Of a DNA stretch of 64,000 nt, positions 2,415-18,893 are shown one piece after another. Below the pieces are notes generated by a model. It worked only from the letters and a program-made list of their open reading frames with translations. It was not told the origin of the DNA and did no database searches. Source of the DNA: Candidatus Bathyarchaeota archaeon A05DMB-3 (GTDB lineage Archaea > Thermoproteota > Bathyarchaeia > Bathyarchaeales > Bathycorpusculaceae); assembly GCA_019685555.1 (NCBI GenBank), contig JABFQN010000006.1, forward strand, positions 1 to 64,000. The letters run 5' to 3'. How positions within the stretch are numbered: the first letter of the stretch is position 1; each line of letters starts with the position of its first letter. The translations under genes were made by a program, and so were the position numbers.

Positions 2415-3542
2415 TCATCGGCTTTTATTGATAACGTCTACAAGCGTGTCTATTTCTTTTTCCGTGTTGTAGAAGTGGGGTGAAACCCTTATCCCATGGG
2501 CTCTTGCAGAAACAACAATATCCTTCTCTCTGAGTTCTCTGACGATTTGCTGTGCTTTATCCGTTTTTATGTTCACTATTCCACTGCGGTACGGTTTTTC
2601 TTCTGGTGTTTGCAGTTCAAACCCTAAGGCTTTCGCTGATTCCATTAGGCGGTCTGTTAGCTTAATTACGCGGTTTTCAATGTTTTGTATTCCGAACTCC
2701 AAAAGCATTTTTATGGCTTCCGCTGCGCCTACAAAGCTTACAGTGCTTGGTGTGCCAACCTCAAAGCGGCTTGCATTTTCAGAAAGCCTTAAACTCCAAA
2801 TATCCCAAAAATCGATGGTTTCAAAAACCTCTTGGTTTACGCTTGCCCATCCCACGTAAGGCGGCTCAAACTCTCTGATGAGTTCTTCTTTCACATATAG
2901 GTATGCGGCGCCAGCCGGTCCAAGAAGCCATTTGTAGCATGCTGCTGTCAAAAAGTCCACGTTGTCGCGTTTCACATCTATCGGTATAACGCCAGCCGAT
3001 TGAATGGCGTCCACAATTAGGATTGCGCCGTGTTCATGGGCGATTTCGCTTAAAGCCTTTAAATCATTACGGAAGCCGTTAACATATTCAACATGGCTCA
3101 CGGCAACCGCCACAGTCTTGTCATCAACCGCCTTTTCCACATCTTCCAACAAAATTTTCCCATCGACATTTTTAACATATTGAACTTTAACGCCTAGGCT
3201 TTTCCGTAGCCAAGGATAAACCACAGAGGGATACTCCAAATCCGTTGTGACAACCTTTGAGCCCGGCGGATAATGCAGCACGTTTGCAGCAATGTTTAAA
3301 CCCACAGAAGTGTTTTCTACAAGGGCTATTTCTTCAGGTTTTGCGCCAATAAGCTTAGCAAATAGGGATTTTCCAAGGTCAGTTAACTCTAAAGCTGAAG
3401 CCCCAAAATTTGAAAAGTCTTCAATATACTTGCGCATGGCGTCAGCAACTGGCTTCGGAAGCGGAGACTGGGCAGCATGATTTAGGAAAACCTTGTTCTT
3501 GACTATTGGAAACAATTCGCGAATCCTTTCTAAGCTTTCCAT
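2415..3542 (-). CDS. class V aminotransferase (cysteine desulfurase-like)
   Basis: PLP-dependent fold-type I enzyme of the class V aminotransferase/SufS-like group, 375 residues, a normal length. The PLP-binding Lys is K204 in ACYKWLLGPAG, with the cofactor Asp in IVDAIQSAG about 25 residues before. The active-site Cys loop of true SufS proteins is not obvious, so the substrate could be cysteine, kynurenine or isopenicillin-like compounds; only the family is certain. It is a single gene facing valS, and its upstream region is shared with the divergent YbjQ gene. Confidence 0.85.
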   Translation of the reverse strand: MESLERIRELFPIVKNKVFLNHAAQSPLPKPVADAMRKYIEDFSNFGASALELTDLGKSLFAKLIGAKPEEIALVENTSVGLNIAANVLHYPPGSKVVTTDLEYPSVVYPWLRKSLGVKVQYVKNVDGKILLEDVEKAVDDKTVAVAVSHVEYVNGFRNDLKALSEIAHEHGAILIVDAIQSAGVIPIDVKRDNVDFLTAACYKWLLGPAGAAYLYVKEELIREFEPPYVGWASVNQEVFETIDFWDIWSLRLSENASRFEVGTPSTVSFVGAAEAIKMLLEFGIQNIENRVIKLTDRLMESAKALGFELQTPEEKPYRSGIVNIKTDKAQQIVRELREKDIVVSARAHGIRVSPHFYNTEKEIDTLVDVINKSR

Positions 3543-3635
3543 CCAAAACCCTTCATTGAGCCTTAAATGGCGGAATAAGCACTTAAGGTTTAAAGTTGCA
3601 ATGTGTAAAATATAGTTGCCACACCTGGTTAAAAT

Positions 3636-3767
3636 TTGAGAAACCTAAGAGTTAACTTACGTTTCGAAGAACATTTCAAATATTTTTTAGTAGCGATTTT
3701 GGTTGCCATAATTGCCGCCGCGTTTTTCAAAATGCATAAAACAGACGCTTTAAGCTTAACAACTTAA
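3636..3767 (+). CDS. possible 43-residue single-span membrane peptide
   Basis: A TTG-started reading frame lies in the 274-bp gap between two genes. It has a charged N-terminus (RNLRVNLRFEEHFK), one hydrophobic stretch (YFLVAILVAIIAAAFF) and a short polar tail, the shape of a small membrane protein. There is no clear Shine-Dalgarno sequence and no homologue I recognise, so it may be chance. The gap otherwise holds AT-rich promoter sequence for the flanking genes. Confidence 0.25.
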   Translation: MRNLRVNLRFEEHFKYFLVAILVAIIAAAFFKMHKTDALSLTT

Positions 3768-3816
3768 ATTAACAACTTTAACCTATATCATTCTTCAAGG
3801 AGGTATTTGGTTTTAA

Positions 3817-4161
3817 ATGAGCGAAGTAATTGTTGTTACAACGCCGGGAATTCCGGGATACGAAATCGTGAAGGTTTTAGGTCCAGTGCATGGGCTGACT
3901 GTGCGAACAAGAGGAGTTGGCGGTAAAATAGTCGCCAGCATTGAGGGAATTTTTGGAGGAGAGGTAACCGCCTACACTTATGAATGTGAAAAAGCCAGAA
4001 AGGAATCCTTGGATAGGCTTGTGGAAAACGCAAAGAAAATGGGCGCCAACGCCGTTGTAGGCGCGGACTTCGAAACAAGCGACATCCTTCAAGGAACAGC
4101 AACGGTTTTCGCAGCCTATGGAACAGCGGTTATAGCAAAACCTGCAGAGAAGAAAGAGTAG
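3817..4161 (+). CDS. YbjQ/UPF0145 family protein
   Basis: Small (114 residues) cytosolic protein of the YbjQ family, sometimes called a heavy-metal-binding domain; members are homo-oligomers of unknown role. Family features visible are the N-terminal VVTTPGIPGYEIVKVLG strand pair, the conserved long helix, and the central GANAVVGADFETSDI motif. A strong Shine-Dalgarno AAGGAGGT sits at 3797-3804 and a TATA-like CCTATATC just before it, so it is probably transcribed alone. It ends seven bases from the converging deacetylase-like gene. Confidence 0.9.
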   Translation: MSEVIVVTTPGIPGYEIVKVLGPVHGLTVRTRGVGGKIVASIEGIFGGEVTAYTYECEKARKESLDRLVENAKKMGANAVVGADFETSDILQGTATVFAAYGTAVIAKPAEKKE

Positions 4162-4168
4162 GGCTTCG

Positions 4169-5242
4169 CTATCTAAAGCACTTCCACCTTTTCTTTAACA
4201 AACCCTTCAGTTCGTCGATTACGCCTTCCACCTTTTTCCTACAAAAAGGCGGCTCAATGGGTGCAGCGTAAGGCTCTTTTGCGTTAATCTCTTCCAAGCC
4301 AACTGCTCCAGCGGCTAGGGCATACCAGCAAAGCGGCAAAATTTTTGGGTTATAGCCGCTTCCCACCAACATGATGAGCTTTCCATCACACAATTTTTTT
4401 GCAGTTTCTCTGATTAGGTTTGATAGGGCGAAGAAGCCTTTGGCTGTTAGGCTTAGGTCTCCCAGCATATCTGCAAAATGAGGGTCACTTCCGCCATTGG
4501 CGATTATAATTTCTGGCTGGAACTCTTCAGCTAAAGGCACGAAAATCTCCCTTAAAGCGTAAAGATATGTGCTGTCGCCGGTTCCGGGTGGTAAAGGCAC
4601 ATTAACATTGAAGCCTTCTCCATAGCCTTCGCCGATTTCCCAAGTGAATCCCTTGCCCGGATAAAGCGTTCTGGGGTCTTGATGCAATGAAATGAAAAGG
4701 ACGCTGGAGTCGCGATAGTAAATGTCGCTTGTGCCGTTCCCGAAATGCACGTCATAATCCAATATCAAAAACCTTTTCACGTTTCTTTCATGTCTCAAAT
4801 GCTCTACTAAAACGGCTATATCGTTGAAGAGGCAGAAGCCACCGCCGTAATCCCTTCCAGCATGGTGGAAACCGCCTCCCAGCGAAATTGCCCTCTTCGC
4901 CCTTTCGTCATAGACAGCCTTACCACATTCTATTGCACCGCCAACTATAAGCAACGCAGCTTCCAGAATCTGCGGAGAAACAGGAGTTTCAATGTCGTAT
5001 GGTCTACCTTCAGATGCTAAACGAAAAATTAAGTCCACATAGCTCTCGTCGTGAACCATTAACAAGTCCTCTTTCGACGCTGGTTTAGGCTCTATTACCT
5101 TTAATTGGGGAAGGCTGAGCAGTCCCTGTTCCCTGAAAAAGTTTATGGCGTTTAAAAAGCGGTCTCCTCTATAAGGGTGTCCCTCCCCTAAATCATACTG
5201 CCTAAACTTTTCATGGAAGGTCATAACAACATTTTCCTGCAA
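4169..5242 (-). CDS. histone deacetylase/AcuC-family zinc hydrolase
   Basis: Arginase-deacetylase fold enzyme expected to remove acyl groups from lysine or small amines. The 357 residues contain the charge-relay pair H126-H127 in GGGFHHAG, the zinc ligands D164 and H166 in LDYDVHFGNG, and the third ligand Asp in GGSDPHFADMLG. I chose the TTG start at 5242 because it supplies the first beta strand (VVMTF) before the conserved HEKF-Y-D-GHP region; an ATG 18 bases downstream would cut it. Whether the target is a protein (for example an Alba-type chromatin protein), acetoin-related or a polyamine cannot be told. Confidence 0.9.
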   Translation of the reverse strand: MQENVVMTFHEKFRQYDLGEGHPYRGDRFLNAINFFREQGLLSLPQLKVIEPKPASKEDLLMVHDESYVDLIFRLASEGRPYDIETPVSPQILEAALLIVGGAIECGKAVYDERAKRAISLGGGFHHAGRDYGGGFCLFNDIAVLVEHLRHERNVKRFLILDYDVHFGNGTSDIYYRDSSVLFISLHQDPRTLYPGKGFTWEIGEGYGEGFNVNVPLPPGTGDSTYLYALREIFVPLAEEFQPEIIIANGGSDPHFADMLGDLSLTAKGFFALSNLIRETAKKLCDGKLIMLVGSGYNPKILPLCWYALAAGAVGLEEINAKEPYAAPIEPPFCRKKVEGVIDELKGLLKKRWKCFR

Positions 5243-5342
5243 ACGTCTATAGCCCCCCTTTAACTGTGTTGGCGTGCAAAGAATATAAAACTCTTTAATT
5301 ATGCCTTAGCTTCAAAAGAGAAAAAGGAGAAATTGGAGATTC

Positions 5343-5960
5343 TCAGTTTTCCGGGTTTTCTCCCTCAGCTTTTGTTTCAAGAAGCTGTGTTTCCGGCGGG
5401 TTTTCGGTTAAAGCTTGCGGTTCTGCCTCTGTTTGCGGTTCAACAGTTTCGACTTCAAGTTTGCTAACATCGGTGCTTTCAATGTTTTCGGCTTCAACTG
5501 TTGGCTGTGGCGTTGCGCTTTCCTCGGTTTTTGGAGCACTTGTAAGTTTGTCCATAGCCTCTTTAATGGCGTTCAGCTCTTGCCTTGCGGTCTCAAGCCC
5601 CGTAGATAGTAGGGATATTTCCCGCTGGTAGGTTTCCTCTTCAACTTCGCCACTGACGTGTTGTATTTCAAAGTTTGCCAAAAGCCGCTCCAGTATCCTG
5701 ATCTGCTCCTCAACCTCCTTCATCTTAGCAGCCATTTTATCCACTAAAGCCTTCTTTTGCGCCTCGATTTCCGCTAAGGCCTCATCCATCTCTTTGTCAA
5801 AAAGGTCAAAAGTGGACTGCGATATTTTGCCGCTGTTAAACAAGCTGTTCAAAGCTTGCTTCTTTTTAAGCACAGCCCAGTGTTCTTCACTTAATCTTTC
5901 AAAAGAGCGCTTCCACGAAATCAATTTCTCTAACACCGCAATTTTAGAGGCAAACAGCAA
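5343..5960 (-). CDS. coiled-coil protein with acidic tail, possibly CdvA-like
   Basis: A 205-residue protein. Residues about 5-140 are almost entirely helical, with heptad-like spacing and a short break near 'HVSGEVEEETYQREIS'. Residues about 145-205 form a Pro/Glu/Thr-rich, very acidic and probably disordered tail. No enzyme motif is present. The layout (coiled coil, short hairpin, flexible tail) resembles CdvA-like or ESCRT-associated coiled-coil proteins of archaea, but the PRC-barrel of crenarchaeal CdvA and a clear ESCRT-binding motif are missing, so this is only a suggestion. The gene stands alone next to a repeat-rich intergenic region. Confidence 0.7.
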   Translation of the reverse strand: MLFASKIAVLEKLISWKRSFERLSEEHWAVLKKKQALNSLFNSGKISQSTFDLFDKEMDEALAEIEAQKKALVDKMAAKMKEVEEQIRILERLLANFEIQHVSGEVEEETYQREISLLSTGLETARQELNAIKEAMDKLTSAPKTEESATPQPTVEAENIESTDVSKLEVETVEPQTEAEPQALTENPPETQLLETKAEGENPEN

Positions 5961-6109
5961 AAATAACGTTTGTTAACATGTAGATATATTGCTGAGTGTT
6001 AAAAAGGGCTTCTTTCGCTTGTTGGATGAAAACTTTCGTTTAAAACCCAAGTCTAGCAAACTGTAAAGGTTGTCAAAATCTTGAAAGATTTTACCGACTG
6101 GTTTGTAAA

Positions 6110-6214
6110 GGTTGTTAGCTTTCTGGATGAAAAGTTTAAACATGTTTATTCGATTTCAACTTCTAATTCAGAAAGCTAACAACCGGAATAGTTTTCGTGC
6201 AGAAAGCTAACAAC
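6110..6214. repeat. 16-bp inverted repeat with a third copy of one arm
   Basis: GGTTGTTAGCTTTCTG (6110-6125) is perfectly inverted as CAGAAAGCTAACAACC (6169-6184), with 43 bases between. Fifteen bases of the right arm occur again at 6200-6214. Just upstream, TGTAAAGGTTGT occurs at 6062-6073 and again at 6104-6115, and a GGATGAAAA-type word occurs near 6023 and 6124. The 335-bp gap 5961-6295 holds only these repeats and the upstream region of the tRNA gene; I see no coding frame. A regulatory hairpin, a protein-binding array or a remnant are all possible. Confidence 0.85.
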
Positions 6215-6295
6215 TTCATAACAGGACTCCTCAAAGTCCAATCGAAATGCTAAAAAGCATCCTCCAAACCTTTTCTAACCGAAAGCATCAACGAA

Positions 6296-6405
6296 GGGCC
6301 CGTAGCTCAGTAAGGATAGAGCACCGGGCTTTTAAGCCGCTTAAAAGCCATAAAAAGCGCAGAGAAACCCGGGGGTCACGGGTTCAATTCCCGTCGGGCC
6401 CGCCA
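6296..6405 (+). tRNA. tRNA-Lys (anticodon TTT) with 32-nt intron
   Basis: A complete cloverleaf can be drawn: acceptor GGGCCCG/CGGGCCC, D stem GCTC/GAGC, anticodon stem CCGGG/CCCGG, T stem ACGGG/CCCGT with loop TTCAATT, discriminator G6402 and an encoded CCA at 6403-6405. The anticodon TTT is 6331-6333. The anticodon loop only closes if about 6335-6366 is removed, an intron at the canonical archaeal position 37/38; the exact splice point is uncertain by a base or so because of repeated A residues. A bulge-helix-bulge would be recognised by the archaeal splicing endonuclease. Confidence 0.95.
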
Positions 6406-6493
6406 GTATTCTATCGAGAACCCCGCGGGTTTTGTAAAGCCTTATATTAGGGCGTAGTTTTGACAATATGTGATTTGGGTATGGTTGCTGGTT

Positions 6494-7240
6494 ATGGGTG
6501 AATTTGCCATAGTCATAGAAAGGGTTGTTAAACGTTTTGAGGACGTTATCGCTGTTAATGATGTAAGCCTTAAAGTTGTTCGGGGTGAACTTTTTGGTTT
6601 GCTTGGTCCTAATGGTGCTGGCAAAACTACGACGGTGAATATTCTCTGTGGGCTTTTGAAGCCTACAAGTGGTTTCGTCTCTGTGGGCGGTTATGGCGTG
6701 CAAAGGGAAAATGCAAAGGTTAAAAGGCTTATAGGGGTCTGTCCTCAGGAAAACGCTGTTTACCCGTATCTGACGGGTGCGGAGAATGTAGAGCTTTTCG
6801 GAAACCTATACTCCCTCGACAAGGACACATTTAAAAGTAGACGTGACATGCTTCTTGAAAGGTTGGGTTTAACCCAAGACGCCCGTAGAAAGGTTGAAAA
6901 ATATAGCGGAGGAATGAAAAGGCGGCTAAGCATCGTTTTGGCTTTAATTCATAATCCGCAAATCATATTCCTAGATGAGCCCACAATAGGCATGGACCCC
7001 CAGTCCCGCCGCGCCGTCTGGGATTTCATGGAAGAGCTGAAAAAAGAGGGTAAAACAGTTTTTATGACAACTCATTACATGGAGGAGGCGGAAGCCCTCT
7101 GCGACCATGTCGGCATAATAGACTATGGAAAACTCATCGCTCTTGACACGCCGAAAAATTTGATTTCGAAAAACGGCGTCGACAACCTAGAAGAAGTTTT
7201 CATTAAATTAACTGGGCGGAGGATAAGGGAGGAAATCTGA
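6494..7240 (+). CDS. ABC-2 exporter ATP-binding protein (DrrA-like)
   Basis: ATP-hydrolysing subunit of an export ABC transporter. Walker A is GPNGAGKTT (residues 38-46), the signature is YSGGMKRRLS, Walker B is IIFLDEPTIGMD, and the H-loop is MTTHYMEEA, all intact. It belongs to the daunorubicin/multidrug-resistance type with a short C-terminal tail after the H-loop. I chose ATG 6494 over the GTG at 6470 because the conserved first strand (FAIVIERVVKRF) begins directly after it. Its stop overlaps the start of the permease gene by one base, so the two form an operon. Substrate unknown. Confidence 0.93.
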   Translation: MGEFAIVIERVVKRFEDVIAVNDVSLKVVRGELFGLLGPNGAGKTTTVNILCGLLKPTSGFVSVGGYGVQRENAKVKRLIGVCPQENAVYPYLTGAENVELFGNLYSLDKDTFKSRRDMLLERLGLTQDARRKVEKYSGGMKRRLSIVLALIHNPQIIFLDEPTIGMDPQSRRAVWDFMEELKKEGKTVFMTTHYMEEAEALCDHVGIIDYGKLIALDTPKNLISKNGVDNLEEVFIKLTGRRIREEI

Positions 7241-8391
7241 TGAATTTTCAAAGGATTAACGCTTTAACAAAGAAGGAGTTAAAGAAAACTTTTCGAGAAC
7301 CCGCCGTCCTCTTCATGATTTTCTTATTCCCCATAGTCTTCGTCTTAACTTTTGGCGCTTCCTTCGGCGGTTTAGGCGGCTCCCAACCAGTCTATAACAT
7401 AGGCGTGGTCAACTTGGACTCGGCGGGTTGTTCGGGCGCGGCGCAAACACTTATTGAAGCGTTATCAAACACTACGCTTTTGCACGTGCATGTGTACGCC
7501 GACAACCAGACAGCCCAAAACGACCTGTCCCAAGGAAAAGTTCAAGCCGTCATAACTATTCCAGCCGTTTTCAGCCAAAGCCTTGCCTCTTATTATGCGG
7601 CGCCAAACAACCCCGGCGGCTGGGTGAACGCCACTGTTTTGCTCTATTTGGATAAGGGTTCCGTGGTTGCCACGCAGGCTATACCGCCCATAATCCAAAA
7701 CGTTTTAGCCGCATTTTTAAACCAGCAGGTGGCTCCGAGCCCTGTTAATGTGCAAATCGCCTCTCTAATAGAGACTAGGCAGCTTTCAGCCTTCGAGTTT
7801 ATGGCGCCCGGCATGTTCACCTTCGCTTCAATCTTCCTCATAATGATGGTTGCCCAGTCCTTTACTCAAGACCGCGAAAACGGCATGCTTAAAAGGATTA
7901 GAACAACGCCCATAACTCCAACAGAGTTTATGGCAAGCCAAATCCTGTCCTATATGCTTATAGCCCTAATCCAAGCGGTGCTTGTCTTTGCTGCAACCTA
8001 TTTGATGGGTTTCAAACCAGCGATCAGCGTTTCCACCTACATTCTCGCCTTCATCCTAGTGTTGATTTTCTCGCTGTCTAACGTGGGCTTCGGCCTCATC
8101 ACGGCAACAGTTTCAAAAACATCAAACACAGCGACAGGAATATCCTTCCTCTTTGTGCTGCCCCAACTGTTTCTCGGAACCTTCGTCGGCGCCTCCCTCT
8201 CGTCTACTATGCAGACAGTGAGCCGATTCGTGCCAAGCTACTATGTCACAGACGCTTTAACATCACTTTTCCTTAGAGGCGCCTCCATCACAAGTCCAAC
8301 CATAATTTTAGACTCGGCAATAGTGGCGCTGTCATGTGTTGCCATTCTGGCTGCAGGCATAGTTCTCTATGCAAAATACTTCAAAATTTAG
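7240..8391 (+). CDS. ABC-2 type permease
   Basis: Membrane partner of the preceding ATPase, 383 residues. One membrane segment lies near the N-terminus (residues about 22-45), then an extracytoplasmic domain of about 130 residues, then five hydrophobic segments from about residue 185 to the end. The pattern matches ABC2_membrane_3/DrrB-like permeases, including the EFMAPGMFTFASIFLIMM and ENGMLKRIRTTPITP motifs. Start codon and upstream stop overlap (TGATG). Likely exports a lipid, drug or small peptide; no neighbouring gene reveals which. Confidence 0.92.
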   Translation: MNFQRINALTKKELKKTFREPAVLFMIFLFPIVFVLTFGASFGGLGGSQPVYNIGVVNLDSAGCSGAAQTLIEALSNTTLLHVHVYADNQTAQNDLSQGKVQAVITIPAVFSQSLASYYAAPNNPGGWVNATVLLYLDKGSVVATQAIPPIIQNVLAAFLNQQVAPSPVNVQIASLIETRQLSAFEFMAPGMFTFASIFLIMMVAQSFTQDRENGMLKRIRTTPITPTEFMASQILSYMLIALIQAVLVFAATYLMGFKPAISVSTYILAFILVLIFSLSNVGFGLITATVSKTSNTATGISFLFVLPQLFLGTFVGASLSSTMQTVSRFVPSYYVTDALTSLFLRGASITSPTIILDSAIVALSCVAILAAGIVLYAKYFKI

Positions 8392-8457
8392 AGAGGAAAG
8401 GAGGTATAGAAAATAAGCCGTGCCGCAGTTTTATTTTCTACGCTATTTTACGCTAAA

Positions 8458-8549
8458 TAGAGGGGGTAGACTGCTATTGACTTTTTCATCAGCCAAAAGC
8501 TAGAGAGAGGCTAGTGTTTTTGTTAGACTCAACCAGCAACAAAAATGAC
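8458..8549 (+). repeat. dispersed intergenic repeat, copy A
   Basis: Starts with TAGAGGGGGTAG and continues through TATTGACTTTTTC, CCAAAAGCTAGAG and GGCTAGTGTTTTTG to CAACAAAAATGAC. It lines up along its whole length with the reverse complement of 57251-57339 and in part with 18911-18953. A purine-rich stretch similar to the one at 28277-28303 lies just before it, directly behind the permease stop. The 239-bp gap holds nothing else recognisable beyond the upstream sequence of the next gene. Confidence 0.6.
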
Positions 8550-8633
8550 CAGCTTTTCAGACAAGCGTATTCTAAATGCTAAAACCTAATAGGTTTAAAC
8601 ATGCTTACATTATTTTGAAGTGAAGCCTAAGTG

Positions 8634-11045
8634 ATGCGTAGAAGAAGACTGGTCTTTCCCTTCACAGCCATAGTAGGCTTAGACAAGCTTAAGCTGGCGA
8701 TTTTAATAAATGCCATAAACCCAAAAATTGGCGGGGTTCTTATAAGGGGTCCTAAAGGCTCGGGTAAAAGCACTGTTGTGCGGGCTTTGGCTGACATCCT
8801 TCCAAAAATAAATGTTGTTAAGGATTGCCCCTTCAACTGCAACCCCTACGACCCCTCAAACATGTGTCCCAAATGCAGCGAAAAACACAGCCAGGGCGAA
8901 AACTTGCCCGTGGAAGAAAGAGACATGGTTGTTGTGGATTTGCCGCTGGGCTCCACAGAGGACAGGGTGGTTGGCAGTTTAGACGTGGAAAAAGCCATAA
9001 AATATGGTATAGAAGCCCTAGAGCCGGGCATACTTGCGGAAGCGAACCAGAACATTCTATACGTGGACGAGGTGAATCTCCTTCCAGACCACATAGCCGA
9101 CGACTTGCTGGATGCTGCGGCAACGGGATGGAACATTGTAGAGCGAGAAGGCATATCTGTAAGCCATCCTTCTCGCTTCATTTTCATCGGCACCATGAAC
9201 CCTGAAGAAGGCGAGTTGAGACCTCAGTTGCTTGACAGATTTCCATTATCTGTTAATGTTGAAAAGATAACATCGGTAAATGATAGAATGGAAATAGTTA
9301 AGAGGAACATGGAGTTTGAAGCTGACCCGGAAAAATTTTATGAAAAATACAAGCAGTTGCAAGAAGAACTCCGCAACCGTATAGTTCAAGCAAGAAAGGT
9401 TTTAGAGAAAGTTGCCATATCGGACGCTCTTCTAGAGGGAATATGTAAAGCATGTTTGGAACTGAAAGTTGACGGTCTCCGTCCAGACATAGTCATAGCA
9501 AAAGCAGCAGCGGCGCTGGCGGCTTTTGAGAACAGGACTGAAGTAACCCTAAACGATGTTCTAGTAGCAGCTGAACTTGCCTTAAGCCATAGAACAAGGG
9601 AGGGCGGCTTCCTAGAACCAGCAACCCCTCAAGAAATCAGAGAAAGCTTCACGGCGTCCGTGAAAAAAGTTTTTGAAATCGAGAAAATAAGTGGAACGGC
9701 TGAGAAAGGGGCTGAGAAAAGAAAGTTTCTGAAGGGTAAAGCCGTCTTCTGGGTTAAGAAGGACGCGTCTGAAGAAGAGGAAAAACGGGCAACGAAAGAA
9801 AGCCTCGTTAACAAGGCTCGAGCAAAATGGTTTGAATTCCTTTTCCGCCTGAATAGGCTTCTTGGCGGCGTATTTTTCGGAATTGGAAAAAAGCTTAAGA
9901 AAGGTCCAAAAAAGGCGCCTGTAACCGAAGGGTTTCAAGTGGGTTCAGAAAAACTTAAAGGAGAAATCAGTGAGGAAAGGGTTGTTGAAAAGAGAAAGGG
10001 CGAGCTAAAGGGAATCCCAACCGTAAGCAACGCTGCCGAGCCTCCTAAAGTTTCTGAAGGGCGTCCAATAATTTCAAGTGTAGCAAAAATTGTTTCGCCT
10101 TCCAATTTTTCTCTTAAAATGGGGGAGATTAAGGCTAGAGGAAGATACGCTTATGCTGGCAAACGCGCCCAAGCAGTGACGACAATTCACAGAGGCAAAC
10201 CTTATGGCTGGAAATTTCCAAAGGGAAAACCAGTTGACATTCACTTGCCTGCGTCAATTCGCGAATCAGCGAGAAAACAGAAAAAAAGAGAGAAACCCGC
10301 AGACATAGCCTTAAAACTGTGTTTAGAGGATATCCGTGAAAAGTTGAGGTTGTATAAGGCTCCTGCAACAATGGTTTTCGTTGTAGATTTAAGCGGTTCA
10401 ATGCTTCTAAACATGGACGCTGTCAAAAAAGCCCTTTTGGGACTTCATGGCGACGCTTATAGGTTTAGAGATCGTGTTGGAATAGTTGCCCTAAAAGACA
10501 CGGGGGCGGTGGTTGTTCAGCACCCCATAACAAACCTTATGGTTGTTGCGAAAAAACTAATAGATTTAAGGGTAAGCGGTTACACACCCCTCGCTACTGG
10601 AATGCTTAAGGCTTTGGAAGTGCTGAAAGAGGCGAAAAGGAGAGACCCGTCAACTGTTCCCGTCATTGTAATAATAACCGACGGAAGTGCGAATGTTCCC
10701 CTCAAAAGAAGCCTTGAAACTGGCGAGGTTAGACAGATAGAAGAAGCCCGCATAATTGTTAGAGAATATGAAGACCTAGCCGTAAGAGATGTAACCTCTG
10801 TTTCAAAATTAATTAGGCGGGAAGGAATTCCCACCATAGTTGTAAACACAAACCCCCACTTTTATGGGCGTGAAACCTACGGTTTTGCAGTAACGAAAAT
10901 GATTGCCTCAATCACCAAGGGAAGCCACCATGCAATCGGAAGATTAACAACCCAAAAAGAAATGGTTAAAGACATGATGGAAATGATAAGAGAAGACCAG
11001 AAGAGAATAACCTACGAAAGGACGCCATCTAAACTGGCGGCTTAA
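8634..11045 (+). CDS. fused AAA+ chelatase-type ATPase and vWA protein (ChlI-ChlD like)
   Basis: An approximately 800-residue fusion of the two motor subunits of a magnesium/cobalt-chelatase-type complex. Residues about 8-340 are a BchI/ChlI AAA+ module: Walker [11 protein letters not shown], the Cys-containing insertion [17 protein letters not shown], Walker [12 protein letters not shown], sensor motif [19 protein letters not shown] basic, Lys-rich linker follows. The C-terminal vWA domain has a MIDAS metal site ([10 protein letters not shown], then TPLATGM). These proteins are usually annotated as putative cobaltochelatase or Mg-chelatase, but no CobN/BchH catalytic subunit or tetrapyrrole gene is nearby. 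ATG 8634 is directly preceded by an in-frame GTG. The 3' end overlaps the opposing gene by 17 bases. Confidence 0.92.
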
Positions 11046-12012
11046 CCTTCTTTTTCATGTTTAGGCTTTCTCGCATCCACTTTTCAAACTCCTTTGAAGG
11101 CGGTTTTTTAACAAAAAGCCTCTTTCTCATAGCTTCTAAGAAAGCGTTTTCCTCACCTAAAAACTCTGCGGCAGTCAAAACCTTATGTCCAACCTTTTCA
11201 GCTATTTCAAAAACTTTGGCTACTTTTTCCCGCCAGTTTTCATCCCTTAAAATGTGATGTTCCAGAATAGTGCATGGCGCGGTTTCAACAACTTTTTCAA
11301 AGTTGCGCATGCCCAACTGTAACTGTTCTTCACTTACTCTAAACACAGCTAAATACGATGGCGGTCCACCAACCATAACCAGTTGAGGTTTTTCGTTAAC
11401 TATAATCTCAAGGGTTTTAGCTGAAATTGGACCTTGCACGTCTGGAGCAAATAGGAACCTCTCATTTTCAACCTCAATGGTTGCCATTAAAACCCATCCT
11501 AAGGCTGAGTTTTCAAGACCATGTGGCACGGGTTTTGAAAACTTTATCTGTGTTTTTCCAAAAATGAAGGTTTTGCCGTCTGCAACTTCAAGCCTTTCAG
11601 CGTATTTTCCTCTAGTTTTCTGAAAGACCCATCCTCTTCTCCTTTGGCTGAAGTTAATCCATTCTTTAGGGTTCTTCATCAAGACGATTTTCCCTTGGTA
11701 AATTTGTCTGGCTGTTTCATCCGCCCTTGTCCAGTTGCAAAGCCAATCTTCATAGGAAGGCGTGTGATGGTCAAAATGGTAATGGCTCAAAGTCACCACT
11801 TCAGCTTTCTCTGCAGCCTCAGCTATCCTTTTCCTAGACTCAATTATGGCTTTGTACTCCAGCGGATGGGGAGGCAAACCATAACGGTTAGGGCAAAGCG
11901 AAACCCCAGCATCTAATAAAACCCTAACATCCGGAGTTTCCACATAAGTGCACATTGAACGAACGCCCAAACTTTCAGCGGCAAGCGGCACAATCTTTAA
12001 ATGTTTAAACAT
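11029..12012 (-). CDS. UPF0282 metallo-beta-lactamase-fold hydrolase
   Basis: A 327-residue protein of the archaeal UPF0282 family, which has the metallo-beta-lactamase fold but no assigned reaction. The metal-binding signature is [10 protein letters not shown], preceded by [20 protein letters not shown], which is typical of the family; a later His/Asp pair (FAPDVQGP and LEHHILRD) completes the likely di-metal site. It is transcribed toward the chelatase-like gene with a 17-base convergent overlap. The ATG at 12012 is the natural start, as the family begins with a short strand and [11 protein letters not shown]. Confidence 0.9.
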
Positions 12013-12079
12013 GGCGGCTCAACGCTTTAGAGCTAACCAGCTATAAACTTTTATCCAAGTCTGACATTTATTTTTGCAT

Positions 12080-12149
12080 GGCGGGCGATGACGACTCTGG
12101 CCCCGCTGAAATTCGCCAATGATTGGGATCTTGAGTGCGAGAGCCTGCC
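12080..12149 (+). other. possible structured RNA or 5' leader
   Basis: GGCGGGC (12080-12086) can pair with GCCTGCC (12143-12149), six Watson-Crick pairs and one G-T. Outside this, TTGCATG (12074-12080) and CATGCAA (12162-12168) are also inverted. A TATA-like AACTTTTAT lies about 30 bases upstream. Inside there is CGATGA after the 5' arm and CTGA at 12106-12109, which recalls C and D' boxes, but the other boxes are poor. It may simply be the leader of the gene at 12202. Confidence 0.25.
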
Positions 12150-12201
12150 TTTAAATTCTTTCATGCAAAGTTTAGCTTTGAATATCCCGCGAAAGTTTTA
12201 A

Positions 12202-14547
12202 ATGGTTCCCATGAATCTTCCTATGTCATTCACAAAATACTATGGAATAGTTTCCGAAGCATGTATGGAGTTAAAATTGATGTTGTTATCTAAATCGGCG
12301 ATAACAAAGCTGAAAACGATTCTTGTAATTGACTTGATGATTGTCGGCTTGGCAGCTGGCGGATATTATTACCTTCAAACTTTTCTACAAACGGCTGTTG
12401 TGCCTCCCTCGCATGGACCGAAACCTGCTGAATTTACATTGGGAAATTTGACTATTCAGCCTTCTGAAGCAGAGGTGAACCAGCCGATAACCATAAAGGT
12501 TAATGTGACTAATGTGGGCGAAGAATTGGGCACTTACACTTTGAACCTTACAATCAACGGTGTGGTGGAGGAAACTAGGATAATTCAACTTTTAGGCGGA
12601 AACTCCACCGTTGAAGAGTTCATAGTTATAAAGGATGCTGTTGGAACGTATTCTGTTAGAATAGGTGACTTAACTGGAACTTTCAACATTGTTGCGCCTC
12701 CTCCGGCTCCGCAGCCTAGACCCGCCGAGTTCGCTGTATACGGCTTGACAATTAACCCTTATGAAGGCTGGGTTAATGATACAATTCGGATTTCCTTTTT
12801 TGTGCGTAATGTCGGAGGCGAAAGTGGCTCCGTTTCACTCGATTTAACGATTAGAAATTCTACATCCCTTTTGTATCTGCAAACTATTACGGTTGAGCTT
12901 TCTGCTGGAAGTGCGACAACGGAAAGTGTTACTTTTAAACCGAACAGCACGGGAACTTACTATGTAGCTGTAGAGCGCGTGGATGGAACATATCAAAGTT
13001 TGACTGGAACATTCCAAATAGTCCCTACGGGCATGCACACGCTCACCATAAGTGCAAGCGCCATTAACCTCGAATTCAAACTGGACGGGGAAACCAAGAA
13101 AGTGCCCTTTTCCGAACTATTAAATGTAGGCGAACATCTCATTGAAATGCCCACTACAAGTCCAGATGGCAAAGCGGTTTTCCTACGTTGGGAAGATGGC
13201 TCTACAAACCCCGCAAGAAGGATAAACCTCCAAAGCCGTACGTCGCTGTTTGCATATTACAGCGGCGGCTCTTCATGTCCTTCATTGTTTGTTTGGAATG
13301 GAACAAGCCTTGTTTATGTTGCGGAAATTTCCAACCATGGGTGGCTGGGTTATATGAATTACATAACCAACGACCCAGAATGGCCTATCGTTTATTGGAG
13401 GAACAACCCTTGGGATTATCTGAAGCTGGATAAAAATCAACTGCAACTGGTTAACGGCACATATTACGAGATGGTTCTCTCCCAAAGGTGGAATGAAATC
13501 TTCTACTTGGACGCGGCATACTTGGTTGTTGTTGACCATCCATCGGATGTGGATGTTTATTCGACGGGAGTTGAGCAGTACCTAGACCCCGAGTACATGG
13601 GCAAAATTTACACAGTAAGCAAAAATCCTTTGGCGCCTGTTTCGGCTTTTAATGAGAAAGGCGAAGATGTCTTATCCCAAATCCTTTACATGGATGGAGT
13701 TTTCACGCCGGGTTCTAATGGGCTGTTAAGTCCTTCATGGGACAACATTTCATGGAACAGGCTGACTGTGGATCTTGGCAATTTGTCTGGCGCTGAGCAA
13801 ATTAAGCTTATAGTCACTGGAAAGGTTGATTGGGGTTCTCCGGAAGATTACACAGCGTGGATTGAAAAGTTCTTCGCCGCCGAGGTTCCTAACGGCACAC
13901 AAGTCACACCTCCACCGTATATGGAGGTTATGGACGAGAACGGAAACTGGGTTATGGTTCCATGGGAGAGGCAGTTCCCGCTGCCGACGGATGTGAATCC
14001 GAGAACATGGGTTGTTGACTTAACTGGGCTTTTCCCCGCGGACACCGGCAAGTATGTGATTAGGATAAGCAACTTTTGGAATGTAACCTTCGACTATATT
14101 GGAGTTGATGTGTCTCCGCAAGAAAACGTGATAATACAGAGCATTTACCCCTACGCTACGCTTTACCAAGAATTTAATAGTCCATCAGCTTCTTCTGGAA
14201 ACTTCACAAGATACGGAGATGTAACCCCACTGCTGTTGAGCTATGATGACGAATTTGTTATTGGAAGACAAGGCGACGCTGTCCGCCTCATATTTCCAGT
14301 GGATAACCTCGCGCCTCCAGCCGACGGCATGGAGAGAGACTTCTTCTTTTTCGTGGCTTGCTGGTTTAAGGATGAAACTGGAAATTGGGGTTACGGTTTC
14401 GATTTCACAGTAGACCCATTACCTTTCCAAAACATGAGCGGCTTCCCATACCCACTGGATAAAGAAGGTTATCCCTACGAACTGCATTGGGACTATATTA
14501 CAACCTATAACACCAGAGTAGTAAAACCCCAAGACAATGAAACCTAA
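12202..14547 (+). CDS. membrane-anchored extracellular protein with CARDB-like repeats
   Basis: A 781-residue surface protein. An N-terminal hydrophobic segment (LKTILVIDLMIVGLAAGGYYYL) acts as anchor or signal. It is followed by two CARDB/Ig-like domains of about 95 residues, each beginning PAEF...L-I-P/N and containing V-NVTNVG or V-RNVGGESG, and then a PEGA-like strand region and a large C-terminal domain rich in Trp, Tyr and Asn. Numerous N-x-S/T sites fit archaeal glycosylation. The start could be ATG 12202 or, more plausibly given a TATA-like sequence just before 12202, ATG 12265. The next gene begins 20 bases on, so it is probably the first gene of the redox operon, perhaps an extracellular partner of the NapH-like protein. 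Confidence 0.85.
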   Translation: MVPMNLPMSFTKYYGIVSEACMELKLMLLSKSAITKLKTILVIDLMIVGLAAGGYYYLQTFLQTAVVPPSHGPKPAEFTLGNLTIQPSEAEVNQPITIKVNVTNVGEELGTYTLNLTINGVVEETRIIQLLGGNSTVEEFIVIKDAVGTYSVRIGDLTGTFNIVAPPPAPQPRPAEFAVYGLTINPYEGWVNDTIRISFFVRNVGGESGSVSLDLTIRNSTSLLYLQTITVELSAGSATTESVTFKPNSTGTYYVAVERVDGTYQSLTGTFQIVPTGMHTLTISASAINLEFKLDGETKKVPFSELLNVGEHLIEMPTTSPDGKAVFLRWEDGSTNPARRINLQSRTSLFAYYSGGSSCPSLFVWNGTSLVYVAEISNHGWLGYMNYITNDPEWPIVYWRNNPWDYLKLDKNQLQLVNGTYYEMVLSQRWNEIFYLDAAYLVVVDHPSDVDVYSTGVEQYLDPEYMGKIYTVSKNPLAPVSAFNEKGEDVLSQILYMDGVFTPGSNGLLSPSWDNISWNRLTVDLGNLSGAEQIKLIVTGKVDWGSPEDYTAWIEKFFAAEVPNGTQVTPPPYMEVMDENGNWVMVPWERQFPLPTDVNPRTWVVDLTGLFPADTGKYVIRISNFWNVTFDYIGVDVSPQENVIIQSIYPYATLYQEFNSPSASSGNFTRYGDVTPLLLSYDDEFVIGRQGDAVRLIFPVDNLAPPADGMERDFFFFVACWFKDETGNWGYGFDFTVDPLPFQNMSGFPYPLDKEGYPYELHWDYITTYNTRVVKPQDNET

Positions 14548-14567: not shown

Positions 14568-15533
14568 ATGTTATTGGAAATTATAAGCGAACTTCTCAAG
14601 TTAACCATTTTTGCAGGATTAGCCTTAGCTGGAATACTCGCCATACTAATATGGAAAAAGAACCTAACAACAAAAGTCACCTATTTGAGAACTTTCGTAC
14701 AAGTTGTAGCCATGATAGCCTTTTTCTACATATTCTCCTACACAACGTGGCTGCTCCTAATACTTGTTGTAATTTTTGCCATATCCATAGTTTTGGGAAG
14801 ATTTTTCTGCGGGTGGCTCTGCCCCTTCGGTTTATATTTGGATTTGGTGGCTGTAATCCGTAAAACCCTTAATACTCGCTACTGGAGCCTTCCTGAAAAA
14901 CTTAACAGAAGCTTGCATATTCTTCGGTATTTGCTTTTGGTCTTCTTTATTGTTTTGCCTTTTATGCTGGGGCCGATAGAGGCTTGGCAATGGTCTTTAG
15001 CTAAGTTTTTAATGGGACCGTTTAAGCCGATTTCCGTGCTTTTGGGACCTGTAGAACCGCTGATTATACCGTGGGAAAGCCCTCTAAAACTTTATGGTTT
15101 AAGCTTCAGCTATCCCTACGCTTCTATCATAACCTTCTATTCTGGCGAAAATTTCGCTCTCATCAACACCTTCATTTTTATGGCACTAACCTTAGCCAGC
15201 TCTTTTGTGGTTAGGCGGTTCTGGTGTCGCTTTTGTCCAACGGGCGCGTCTTTGGCTATCGTAAACAGGTTTAGAGTGTTCAAGTGGATTCCCTTTCTTC
15301 GCTTAAGCAAAGTGGAGGAGAAATGCACTAAATGTGGGATTTGTAAAAGAGTCTGTCCCGTGCAAGTCACTGATGTTTATGAGCAGAAAGGCGGAGACAT
15401 CACCACTTCGATGTGCATGCTCTGCCTACGCTGTGTTGAAATGTGCCCCTACGAAGACTGTTTAAAACTGAGCATGGCGGGTAAAACCCTTTTTAAGTCA
15501 CGAAACTGGTTAGAACCATCAAAAATCACATGA
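14568..15533 (+). CDS. NapH/MauN-like membrane iron-sulphur protein
   Basis: A 321-residue integral membrane ferredoxin. About five to six membrane helices are visible (residues roughly 8-28, 45-66, 67-86, 125-145, 200-222). Two CxxxCP motifs, CGWLCPFG and CRFCPTGA, sit at helix ends as in NapH, NosR and RnfB-related proteins. The C-terminus carries two ferredoxin-type clusters: CTKCGICKRVCP and CMLCLRCVEMCP. Such proteins pass electrons between a quinone or periplasmic partner and cytosolic or extracytosolic carriers. It is followed after nine bases by the HgdB-type reductase gene, which implies a shared electron route. Confidence 0.9.
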   Translation: MLLEIISELLKLTIFAGLALAGILAILIWKKNLTTKVTYLRTFVQVVAMIAFFYIFSYTTWLLLILVVIFAISIVLGRFFCGWLCPFGLYLDLVAVIRKTLNTRYWSLPEKLNRSLHILRYLLLVFFIVLPFMLGPIEAWQWSLAKFLMGPFKPISVLLGPVEPLIIPWESPLKLYGLSFSYPYASIITFYSGENFALINTFIFMALTLASSFVVRRFWCRFCPTGASLAIVNRFRVFKWIPFLRLSKVEEKCTKCGICKRVCPVQVTDVYEQKGGDITTSMCMLCLRCVEMCPYEDCLKLSMAGKTLFKSRNWLEPSKIT

Positions 15534-15542
15534 GGCCCACCA

Positions 15543-16871
15543 ATGAACGAAACAAGCGAAAAAAAGTACAGCCTTGAAATCTTCCCAAAAGAAATAGAAG
15601 AGCTTAAAAACACCATTAAAACCGCCTCGACAAAAATCATGGAAGAATACATCGAAAGAATGCGAAAAACGTGGCCTGACAGGCCAGAAGAAATGCAGTA
15701 TTTTGATGAAATCGCCAAGTTCTGGGGGACTCGTGAAAAGGAAATCGTTGAGGCGAGGGAAGAAGGCAAGAAGGTTATAGGCTATACTTGCATGTTTGCG
15801 CCTATCGAGCTGATTTTAGCCGCGGGTGCCATTCCAGTGCGCGTGAGTTCTGGATTGTATGATCCTGTAAAGCTTGGAAACAGAGTAGTTCCCGTGGAGG
15901 TTTGTCCAGTTGTAAGGTCTACCATAGGCGTAAAAATGGTTGGCTTGTCGCCTTATCTTGAGTTAAGCGATGCATTGATAACTTCGCTTACATGCGATGG
16001 AATGACTAAGCTAAGCGAAATTTTAAGCGACTACAAGCCTGTTTGGACTCTTTGTCCTCCCCGTTTGAAGGATTCTGAGCAATCCATTTCTTTCTGGAAA
16101 GAAGAGTTAAAAGCTGTTAAGGAGAAAATTGAGAAGTTAACTGGGACAAAGATAACCAGCAGCAAGTTAAAGTCTGCTATAGAACGATTGCATAGGGCAA
16201 CACGTGCTTTCCGTAGGCTTCAAGACTTGCGAAAAGGAAATCCCGTGATAATGGGTAGAGACGCTATGCTGGTTAACCAGACACTCATGTGGGATGACGT
16301 GGAAAGGTGGACACAGAAAACCGAAAAGTTATGCGATGAACTTGAAAGAAGAGCGCAGGGAAAAGTTTGGGCATGTCCGCTTAAAACGCCAAGGGTTATG
16401 ATTGCTGGTACACCTATAATTTGGCCTGACAACTGGAAACTTCCAAATCTTGTTGAAGAGGCTAATCCTCAAGGGGTTATTGTTGCCGACGAGCTTTGTT
16501 CAGGAGACCGTTTCCTATATGATCCCGTAGGCGTGGATGAGTGGACTATGGAGGATATGTTCAACGCTGTGGCTGATAGGTATCTGCTTCCTTCCACTTG
16601 TCCATGCTTCACTTCTGAAGATGGAAACGAGGATAGGGTTAACTGGATAAAAGCCAGAGTTGAAGAGCGTCGAGTGGACGGCGTCGTCTACCATGTTTAT
16701 CGAGGATGCATGTTATACGCCATGGAATACATGCGGATAAAAAAGGTTCTAGATAAAATAAACGTGCCAGTTTATTACCTCGACACAGATTATACAAGGG
16801 AAGATGTTGGACAGATAAAAACAAGAGTTGAAGCCTTCTTGGAAATGTTAAAATCAAGGGTTGAATTTTGA
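15543..16871 (+). CDS. 2-hydroxyacyl-CoA dehydratase/benzoyl-CoA reductase-type subunit (HgdB-like)
   Basis: A 442-residue iron-sulphur protein of the HgdB/BcrB/FldB family, the component that receives very low-potential electrons from an ATP-driven activator. Cysteines occur at 83 (YTCMFAP), 121 (VEVCPVV), 151 (SLTCDGM), 171, 264, 278, 319 (DELCSGDRF), 353 and 355 (STCPC), and 389 (YRGCMLYAMEY). Only one such subunit is encoded here, whereas dehydratases and benzoyl-CoA reductases use two different ones. A homodimer resembling double-cubane cluster proteins is therefore possible. Substrate unknown; no acyl-CoA transferase or ligase is adjacent. It runs straight into the activator genes. Confidence 0.9.
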   Translation: MNETSEKKYSLEIFPKEIEELKNTIKTASTKIMEEYIERMRKTWPDRPEEMQYFDEIAKFWGTREKEIVEAREEGKKVIGYTCMFAPIELILAAGAIPVRVSSGLYDPVKLGNRVVPVEVCPVVRSTIGVKMVGLSPYLELSDALITSLTCDGMTKLSEILSDYKPVWTLCPPRLKDSEQSISFWKEELKAVKEKIEKLTGTKITSSKLKSAIERLHRATRAFRRLQDLRKGNPVIMGRDAMLVNQTLMWDDVERWTQKTEKLCDELERRAQGKVWACPLKTPRVMIAGTPIIWPDNWKLPNLVEEANPQGVIVADELCSGDRFLYDPVGVDEWTMEDMFNAVADRYLLPSTCPCFTSEDGNEDRVNWIKARVEERRVDGVVYHVYRGCMLYAMEYMRIKKVLDKINVPVYYLDTDYTREDVGQIKTRVEAFLEMLKSRVEF

Positions 16872-16887: not shown

Positions 16888-17673
16888 ATGATTGTCGCTG
16901 GTTTGGACATGGGTGTACAAAACGTCAAAGTAGCCATAATAAAAGACGGTGAGCCCATATCATATGGGTTGGTTCCTTCGGGGTTTGAACCTGAAAAAGC
17001 GGCGGAACAAGCCTTTAAACAAGCTTTAGAGAAGGCTGAAATAGCTTTTAGTGACATTGAGCATGTGGCAGTCACTGGTGTTGGAGTGGAGTTGGCTCCA
17101 CGTGTTGACAGCAAACTCAGCATCATATCCGCCGATGCTAAAGCAGCAGTTTACCTTTACCCTTCCGTGCGAACCGTTATAGATGTGGGAGCTGAAGAGT
17201 CAAGGGTGATAAACTGCAGCGAAAAGGGGACAGTTTTAGATTTTACCTTAAACGAGAGGTGCGCGGCTGGAGCTGGAGCTTTCCTTGAAGCCATGGCACG
17301 AGCTCTCGAAATGAAAATTGAGGACATGGGGATGCTTTCCCTTAAAGCCGCGGGAACAGTTTCGATAAGTGCTACATGCGTAATTTTCGGCGAATCAGAC
17401 GTTGTAAGCCTAATCCACAAGCAGGAACCTAAACATGAAATTGCCAGAGCCATATATGATGCCCTAGCTGAAAGAATAACATCTATGGTTCACAGAGTAG
17501 GGTTAAAACCCGACGTTGTATTAGTGGGCGGTGTAGCCAAAGACGTGGGGTTTGCCGCCGCCCTAAAAAGGAAGCTGGAAACAGAAATTATAATCCCCAA
17601 AAATCCCGAGTTTGCTGGAGCCCTCGGCGCCGCCCTTTACGCCTTAGAAAATGCTGGAGGAAAACTGAAATGA
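16888..17673 (+). CDS. BadF/BcrA/HgdC-type activator ATPase, divergent copy
   Basis: ATP-hydrolysing [4Fe-4S] activator of the ASKHA fold, 261 residues. Cluster cysteines are C125 (NERCAAGAGAF) and C164 (SATCVIFGES), equivalent to those shared by the two subunits of HgdC. Several otherwise conserved nucleotide-site motifs differ from the family norm: TGVGV for TGYGR, ISADAKAA for ITCHAKGA and DVGAEE for DIGGQD. GGGGAGG upstream supports ATG 16888 over the TTG at 16861. The stop overlaps the next activator start by four bases, so the two probably form a heterodimer as in BcrA/BcrD. Confidence 0.92.
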   Translation: MIVAGLDMGVQNVKVAIIKDGEPISYGLVPSGFEPEKAAEQAFKQALEKAEIAFSDIEHVAVTGVGVELAPRVDSKLSIISADAKAAVYLYPSVRTVIDVGAEESRVINCSEKGTVLDFTLNERCAAGAGAFLEAMARALEMKIEDMGMLSLKAAGTVSISATCVIFGESDVVSLIHKQEPKHEIARAIYDALAERITSMVHRVGLKPDVVLVGGVAKDVGFAAALKRKLETEIIIPKNPEFAGALGAALYALENAGGKLK

Positions 17674-18566
17674 GCGGAGACAACGTTGAGTATTGGAGAT
17701 GGCGAGAATACCGCTTAACCGTGCCCAACAAGAAATGGGAAAATGCTGAAATCATAACCTTAGGTGTAGACGTCGGTTCTGTAAGCTCAAAAGCGGCGGT
17801 AATGGTGGATGGTGAAATATACTCTCTAAGCGTTATGCGAACTGGCTCCAGCAGTCCAGACAGCGCTAAAAAAGTTGTGGAATGGGCGCTGGAAGGAACT
17901 GGAATTAAACTAAGCGACATCCACTACATTGTTGGCACTGGATATGGAAGGGTTAATGTTCCCATGGCTAAAAGCACCATCACAGAGATTGCTTGCCACG
18001 CAAAAGGCGCCAACTACATTTGGGGACCCACTGTGAGGACGATACTGGATGTAGGCGGTCAAGACATAAAAGTCGTTAAATGCGATGAAAAGGGCAAGGT
18101 GCTATCCTTCCTCATGAACGACAAATGCGCAGCAGGCACAGGCAGAGGAATGGAAGTTTTAGCAGACTTGTTGAAAATACCCATAGAAGAAATGGGGGCA
18201 GCCTCACTGAAGGTTGAAGAAGAGCCTGACCCCGTAAGCTGCACATGCGTAGCCTTTGCAAGAACCGAAGCAATGGGATTACTGCGCAGAGGCTGGTCAA
18301 AAGAGAAGGTTTTAGCTGCTTACATGCAAGCCATGGTCCTCAGAATGTGCAATCTGCTTGAAAGGGTAGGATGCGAAAAAGACCTTGCAATCACTGGAGG
18401 GCAATCAAAAAACATTGGAATAGTATCCAGAGTGGAAAAAATAATGGGTGTTAAGCCCCTTCCCATGCCCAACTGGGAAGAAGACGGACGAGATCCCATG
18501 GCTGCAGGAGCCATAGGTGCAGCCCTTTTCGCCAAAGCCTTATACGAAAAAGCACAGAAAACCTAG
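17670..18566 (+). CDS. BadF/BcrA/HgdC-type activator ATPase, canonical copy
   Basis: Second activator ATPase, 298 residues, with an N-terminal extension of about 28 residues before the first ATPase strand (ITLGVDVGSVSSKAAV). It has the full family set: GTGYGR, EIACHAKGA, ILDVGGQD, NDKCAAGTGRG with cluster Cys 153, and SCTCVAFARTE with Cys 191/193. It would bind ATP, dock on the HgdB-like protein and inject one electron per hydrolysis. The start ATG overlaps the TGA of the previous gene, which argues for translational coupling and a fixed stoichiometry. Confidence 0.93.
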   Translation: MSGDNVEYWRWREYRLTVPNKKWENAEIITLGVDVGSVSSKAAVMVDGEIYSLSVMRTGSSSPDSAKKVVEWALEGTGIKLSDIHYIVGTGYGRVNVPMAKSTITEIACHAKGANYIWGPTVRTILDVGGQDIKVVKCDEKGKVLSFLMNDKCAAGTGRGMEVLADLLKIPIEEMGAASLKVEEEPDPVSCTCVAFARTEAMGLLRRGWSKEKVLAAYMQAMVLRMCNLLERVGCEKDLAITGGQSKNIGIVSRVEKIMGVKPLPMPNWEEDGRDPMAAGAIGAALFAKALYEKAQKT

Positions 18567-18584
18567 CCTTGGAGTTGATGCGCA

Positions 18585-18893
18585 ATAATCACTTATTACG
18601 GCTACATTAATGGCTCCGGCGAATACTATATAGCTGTTGATTCTGAAAAGTGCAATGGCTGCGGCGAATGCGTTAAGCGTTGTCCCCAGAAAGCTCTAGA
18701 AATAGCAACCCTTATGGTAGATGTTGAAGAGCAGCATGTAGCCGCTGTGAAAGAAGAACACCGTAAAAAAATCAAATATACTTGTGCACCATGCAAACCT
18801 GATGAAAAACCGCCGCCATGCATTTCATCATGCAAACCTAAAGCACTCATGTGCATTTGGAAAAGCAGAAGCTCCAAGTCTGGAAAGGCATAG
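18585..18893 (+). CDS. 4Fe-4S ferredoxin with non-canonical start
   Basis: A clear ferredoxin-like reading frame of about 103 codons that has no ATG, GTG or TTG near its beginning. Cluster motifs: CNGCGECVKRCP, then CAPCKP...CISSCKP with KPKALMC. The first conserved residues are TYYGYINGSGEYYIAVD. Upstream, GGAGTTGAT (18571-18579) matches the Shine-Dalgarno consensus GGAGGTGAT with one mismatch and ends five bases before ATA 18585, making ATA the likely start; the frame is closed by TGA at 18576-18578. A one-base insertion after ATG 18578 is the alternative. It lies 18 bases behind the activator gene and is the probable electron donor for it. Confidence 0.8.
   Translation: MITYYGYINGSGEYYIAVDSEKCNGCGECVKRCPQKALEIATLMVDVEEQHVAAVKEEHRKKIKYTCAPCKPDEKPPPCISSCKPKALMCIWKSRSSKSGKA

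Follow-up and report, generated by a model that had tools for sequence, protein, structure and literature searches.

The window, by which we mean the whole stretch of 64,000 nucleotides analysed, carries a conserved operon on its + strand, in which genes for a secreted CARDB protein, a NapH-type polyferredoxin, a predicted double-cubane cluster protein (DCCP), two different activases (ACT1 and ACT2) and a 2x[4Fe-4S] ferredoxin follow one another in this order. The DCCP gene (15543–16871, +) starts with ATG and encodes a protein of 442 amino acids that matched the Pfam HGD-D family with 321.7 bits (cut-off 28.4). The ten cysteines and the S-T-C-P-C pair claimed in the first-pass annotation were all found in this open reading frame (Cys83, 121, 151, 171, 264, 278, 319, 353, 355 and 389; the pair is Cys353/355).

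A whole-genome profile search of the source genome (1.46 Mb on 28 contigs; completeness 96%) yielded this gene as the sole PF06050 (HGD-D) match, together with two BcrAD_BadFG activases above the cut-off, both directly downstream of it. Orthologues with 63–83% identity were present in 60 of the 162 genomes of the order, the source genome included; thus, the gene is far from a chance finding. Exactly one HGD-D gene was found in 44 of these 60 genomes, and a second HGD-D subunit is therefore excluded in those 44. The earlier description of a single HgdB-type subunit was borne out by these genome-wide counts, which rule out a second subunit gene elsewhere in the source genome. Among the remaining 16 genomes, 12 carry two HGD-D genes, the second being a paralogue of 36–40% identity, and four (G016, G049, G050 and G090) carry two to four. 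A class-wide search of 256 genomes returned one further relative (G204, 52% identity), and a sample of 398 genomes of the phylum added no further one outside the order. The comparisons below refer to 42 named loci, of which we assign 38 to Bathyarchaeia and one each to Hecatellales, Dehalococcoidia, Fibrobacteres (L117) and Bacteroidetes. The DCCP gene set is widespread in Bathyarchaeia. In one complete-chromosome MAG (L121, 8980–10260), similarity to DCCP stops at residue 378, so that the final ligand region has either been lost or shifted out of frame; this may reflect a sequencing error or decay.

A sequence search against solved structures placed DCCP (7yyl/6eno) first with an E-value of about 1e-81, followed by BzdN (3e-23) and HadC (1e-18). 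The best curated model was NCBIfam NF040772 (double-cubane-cluster-containing anaerobic reductase), which the window protein matched with a score of 339.1, just under the cut-off of 350; HadC, BzdN and BcrC models gave 109, 83.9 and 69.5, respectively. Of six relatives tested, five passed NF040772, namely the Bathyarchaeum tardum orthologue and the proteins of loci L114, L118, L123 and L049 (362.6, 399.9, 383.9, 354.6 and 407.4; the B. tardum orthologue scored 362.6 and the Dehalococcoidia relative 399.9), and the Fibrobacteres relative stayed under the cut-off with 338.4.

The [8Fe-9S] cluster of BzdN is described as coordinated by Cys36, 73, 100, 263, 293 and 327 (PMC11971306). In the alignment, these columns correspond to Cys83, 121, 151, 319, 353 and 389 of the window protein, its predicted ligands, and to Cys76, 114, 144, 309, 341 and 374 of the solved DCCP. 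The window protein and the solved DCCP have cysteine in all six columns, whereas HadC has it in four and MbdN in three. When the window protein was aligned with proteins from 21 of the 42 named loci (22 proteins, identity down to 38%), the invariant cysteines were exactly these six positions.

In a phylogeny of 36 rows, BzdN, HadC, MbdN and the L062 protein were split from all other rows by a branch with support of 98/92, and the window protein grouped on the side of the solved DCCP (6eno). Clustering with HgdB/BcrC-type proteins was not observed in this tree. The nearest rows to the solved DCCP were selenium-linked paralogues (91/83); the clade of the window protein comprises archaeal and bacterial relatives (100/99; 98/92 when L049 is included). 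Several rows are long branches, which leaves the positions of YjiM, L061 and L123 uncertain. An AF2 model of the window protein (pLDDT 88, pTM 0.90) matched DCCP best among solved structures (Z 50, 408 residues, rmsd 1.7–1.8), with Z values of 42.9 for BzdN, 41.5 for HadC and 36 for MbdN. Further matches to metal-binding proteins and NifEN (Z 5–7) were taken as common architecture. Sequence, tree, ligand positions and predicted fold together argue strongly for a double-cubane cluster protein, and the tentative first-pass suggestion of an archaeal member of this group, made with a call for phylogenetic placement and a cysteine comparison with the solved structure, gained support from both analyses.

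The same annotation had expected a dedicated reductase. An activase partner is indeed encoded; a single DCCP-R-like gene is not, and two different activases, one of them BzdQ-like, stand in its place. ACT1 (16888–17673, +) scored 206.7 bits with TIGR00241; its reading frame is open from TTG 16861, and the orthologues suggest ATG 16888 as start. The BzdQ-like ACT2 (17670–18566, +) scored 370.5 bits with TIGR03192 (bzdQ, cut-off 380.2), and its gene overlaps that of ACT1 by 4 bases. The two differ at the position of the phosphate-2 motif of the ASKHA fold: ACT1 has GAEE in 33, GAED in five and GAEN in one of 39 rows, and in ACT2 every one of the 39 rows has GGQD. GGQD is also found in seven single activases, and MbdP has GGQT. 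Both cluster cysteines are kept in ACT1 and ACT2 in every row with letters there (ACT1 Cys134 and Cys173 in 39/39 rows). Of the two subunits, one would probably be the main ATPase and the other a degenerate partner. The nearest solved structure was MbdQ for ACT2 and the activator of 2-hydroxyisocaproyl-CoA dehydratase for ACT1; DCCP-R ranked fourth for both.

ACT1 and ACT2 are separate open reading frames in 37 of the 42 loci each, and in the Fibrobacteres locus they are fused into one protein of 572 amino acids. A single activase was found in L123 and L049, and none beside DCCP in L118 and L121, though downstream sequence is present in both. HgdC-type activases are homodimers, and the retention of two cluster cysteines in both proteins would likewise allow ACT1 and ACT2 to act as independent homodimers with different jobs. 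We regard this arrangement as unlikely, given the fusion, the 4-base gene overlap and the systematic GAE/GGQD asymmetry, and because the source genome has no second HGD-D protein for one of the activases to serve. A heterodimer of ACT1 and ACT2 is the reading followed below.

The relationship of ACT1 to a dehydratase activator, together with the shared HGD-D fold and the presence of activases, could be taken to indicate a one-gene 2-hydroxyacyl-CoA dehydratase in which the activase starts a radical dehydration. This is hardly credible for the window protein: HadC is without two of the six ligand cysteines, an alpha-type subunit is missing from the source genome, and DCCP shares one fixed operon with the activases and the ferredoxin, as expected for stoichiometric electron delivery. 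Membership of the dehydratases was rejected because the alpha plus beta HGD-D pair is missing.

Assignment to benzoyl-CoA reductase (BCR) was judged very unlikely as well. Two activase genes occur as in BCR, ACT2 reached 370.5 with the bzdQ model, and an [8Fe-9S] cluster is also described for BzdN (PMC11971306); moreover, Bathyarchaeia genomes have been described with bcrABCD (PMC8329499) and B. tardum with BcrACD. However, a catalytic subunit of the BcrB/BzdO type is missing, with one HGD-D gene each in the source and B. tardum genomes, and the BzdN and BcrC models scored 84 and 69 versus 339 for the double-cubane model. A real two-subunit layout is present elsewhere in the same order, in L062 of another family (5227–9450), where adjacent genes encode a BzdN-like and a BzdO/HadB-like HGD-D protein with two activases. 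Class I BCR membership was thus rejected on the missing BcrB/BzdO-type subunit, although two activases were found. The L062 locus itself, which is a candidate for a true BCR or a dehydratase, also has a neighbouring gene that we labelled aldehyde:ferredoxin oxidoreductase-like by reading.

These results bear on claims that Bathyarchaeia degrade aromatics via benzoyl-CoA reductase. In the report on the cultured B. tardum (PMC10477458), three adjacent genes are assigned to BcrACD, BcrB was not detected, and benzoate is stated to inhibit growth. The genomes that we match to B. tardum (G583 through L106, and G012–G014) each contain one HGD-D gene, the DCCP orthologue. The reported BcrACD genes are therefore probably the DCCP gene set, since the only HGD-D protein of the organism is DCCP. 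The MAG ILS200 (matched here to L082/G120), which is reported to encode a benzoyl-CoA reductase complex, likewise has DCCP as its one HGD-D protein. Claims of this kind do not all fall by this finding: in other genomes of the order, HGD-D genes stand side by side as pairs.

The operon ends with the dedicated 2x[4Fe-4S] ferredoxin (18585–18893, +), which is present in 37 of the 42 loci and has eight cysteines in 19/19 rows. No ATG, GTG or TTG was found in frame in the region 18579–18893, and we propose ATA as start, preceded by the Shine–Dalgarno (SD)-like GGAGTTGATG. As in the window, 16 of the 37 ferredoxin loci have none of these three codons in the interval from the preceding in-frame stop to the start of the conserved N-terminal part; the same condition was met with in ACT1 (1/39), ACT2 (1/40), DsbD_2 (1/22) and DCCP (0/42). 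At the start column, 22 of the 37 rows show ATA, ATC, ATT, GTT or GTA, although in some of them a canonical codon lies a short way upstream, at a distance of a few codons. SD-like motifs precede 19 of these 22 rows versus 3 of the 15 rows with a canonical codon, a pattern that suggests initiation at near-cognate codons with strong ribosome binding sites making up for the weak start.

Three further proteins may connect the system to the membrane. The gene at 12202–14547 (+) codes for a beta-rich, putatively secreted and membrane-anchored protein with an N-terminal hydrophobic helix, CARDB domains (Pfam, 50 bits) and an invariant Cys359. Orthologues were found at 20 of the 42 loci; eight of the 22 loci without one are contigs with less than 4 kb upstream. 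A fold search with its AF2 model (pLDDT 75) was uninformative, as all matches were to multi-domain beta-rich proteins at a TM of about 0.1. The product of 14568–15533 (+) has several hydrophobic segments, two CxxxCP/CxxCP motifs and two [4Fe-4S] motifs (Pfam Fer4_5 twice and Fer4). Twelve cysteines are conserved in it: ten occur in all 39 rows, and the other two in all 37 rows with letters there. Its NapH score of 71.3 bits lies below the NCBIfam equivalog cut-off of 234; by this measure it is a NapH-like polyferredoxin only and not the NapH quinol dehydrogenase subunit. It adjoins DCCP in 37 of the 42 loci and is missing beside DCCP in the other five despite room.

A DsbD_2 membrane protein is encoded near DCCP in 30 of the 42 loci, and five of the 12 misses are contig ends. 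A genome-wide profile search found no DsbD_2 in the source genome; DsbD_2 is therefore not essential, and it was dismissed as an obligatory part. Three cysteines are retained in the DsbD_2 relatives, two of them close to the N-terminus and the third within a C-P-P-L motif, presumably a thiol-redox set as in CcdA/DsbD.

Several other neighbours were recorded. An AAA plus VWA magnesium-chelatase-like protein is encoded upstream of the operon in the window (8631–11045) and also near the operon in L035. Ammonium transporter genes, of which one was run against a model, lie directly upstream of DsbD_2-DCCP in L115 (two genes, 3412–6192) and L089 (one gene, 6861–8117), both species being without NapH beside DCCP; with two species (L115/L039 and L089/L070), this link was too sparse to use. 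The Fibrobacteres locus (7033–13462) contains a phosphatase/sulfatase-like gene (labelled by reading), NapH, DCCP, the fused ACT1-ACT2 and a HoxU/NuoG-like Fe-S protein. A nitrous-oxide link from neighbours resembling NosL, NosF and NosY in Bacteroidetes (L123) was discarded as weak: NosL and NosY are labels by sequence reading, model support was limited to NapG/NapH and an ABC ATPase of generic type, and the nos_propeller matches lie elsewhere in that genome.

The gene set, its conservation, the six ligand cysteines, the lack of a second HGD-D gene and the activase asymmetry, all taken at the level of sequence, form the basis of a scheme that we consider probable as a whole, namely an archaeal, membrane-tied DCCP homodimer fed from ferredoxin through ACT1/ACT2. 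Cluster type, subunit architecture and electron path are what we infer within it. DCCP would be a homodimer with one predicted [8Fe-9S] cluster per monomer on the six cysteines. The ferredoxin encoded at the operon end would hand electrons to a [4Fe-4S] cluster that the different subunits ACT1 and ACT2 hold jointly, and ATP binding and hydrolysis would push them onto the double cubane, where a small substrate would be reduced by two electrons; this route from ferredoxin over a heterodimeric activase to the double cubane appears to be the most economical one. The NapH-like polyferredoxin, the secreted protein and, in most relatives, DsbD_2 could tie the enzyme to the membrane and feed or drain electrons. 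Quinol input through the NapH-like protein is doubtful because the B. tardum study (PMC10477458) reports neither quinones nor c-type cytochromes to be present in this organism. Counting against the whole scheme are the scores of the window and Fibrobacteres proteins below the NF040772 cut-off, the two loci without an adjoining activase, the five without NapH beside DCCP and the source genome without DsbD_2.

More speculatively, and with low confidence, the asymmetric activase, composed of a working ATPase and a pseudo-ATPase, may serve one double cubane at a time within a membrane-tied module in which cytosolic ferredoxin connects over NapH/DsbD_2 to an extracytoplasmic redox partner. Bathyarchaeia such as B. 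tardum seem to miss a low-potential terminal reductase, and a module of this kind could fill that place. Growth of B. tardum is reported to be stimulated by nitrate and DMSO, for which its authors identified no clear reductase (PMC10477458). According to PMC11971306, it is not known what double-cubane proteins do in nature; with an operon that is conserved, has named partners and occurs also in the cultivated B. tardum, this role becomes testable.

Among known systems, the DCCP/DCCP-R of Carboxydothermus hydrogenoformans (PDB 6eno, 7yyl) shares the six ligand cysteines, one HGD-D protein per system and an activase partner, and is the best sequence and fold match. In the 7yyl complex, however, there is one kind of activase chain, whereas the Bathyarchaeia system has two different activase genes, neither product being closest to DCCP-R, and its operon adds the ferredoxin and the membrane proteins. 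The Bzd-type class I BCR (BzdNOPQ; PDB 8s02) resembles it in the BzdN [8Fe-9S] cluster on equivalent cysteines, the two different activases and the BzdQ-like nature of ACT2, but a BzdO-like catalytic subunit is missing from the source genome and the window protein falls into the DCCP branch. A second DCCP-type paralogue of the same archaea (36–40% identity; L052–L060 and L073; 16 loci in 15 genomes), linked to selenium, shows all six cysteines in L052, L053 and L056, the three rows that were mapped. It differs in its AIRS/SelD-like and DsrE-like neighbours in L053, and none of the ten loci looked at had more than one recognisable activase close by; the L053 neighbours fit the selenium neighbourhood described for 2-hydroxyglutaryl-CoA dehydratase genes (PMC5322559). 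In the literature searched, with most subscription journals outside its coverage, no DCCP with the operon arrangement described here was found. Because of its two different activase genes, fused in Fibrobacteres, we file the system as a DCCP/DCCP-R variant that has membrane partners and an activase split in the manner of BCR; the fold is not new, and what is new is the arrangement and its reach.
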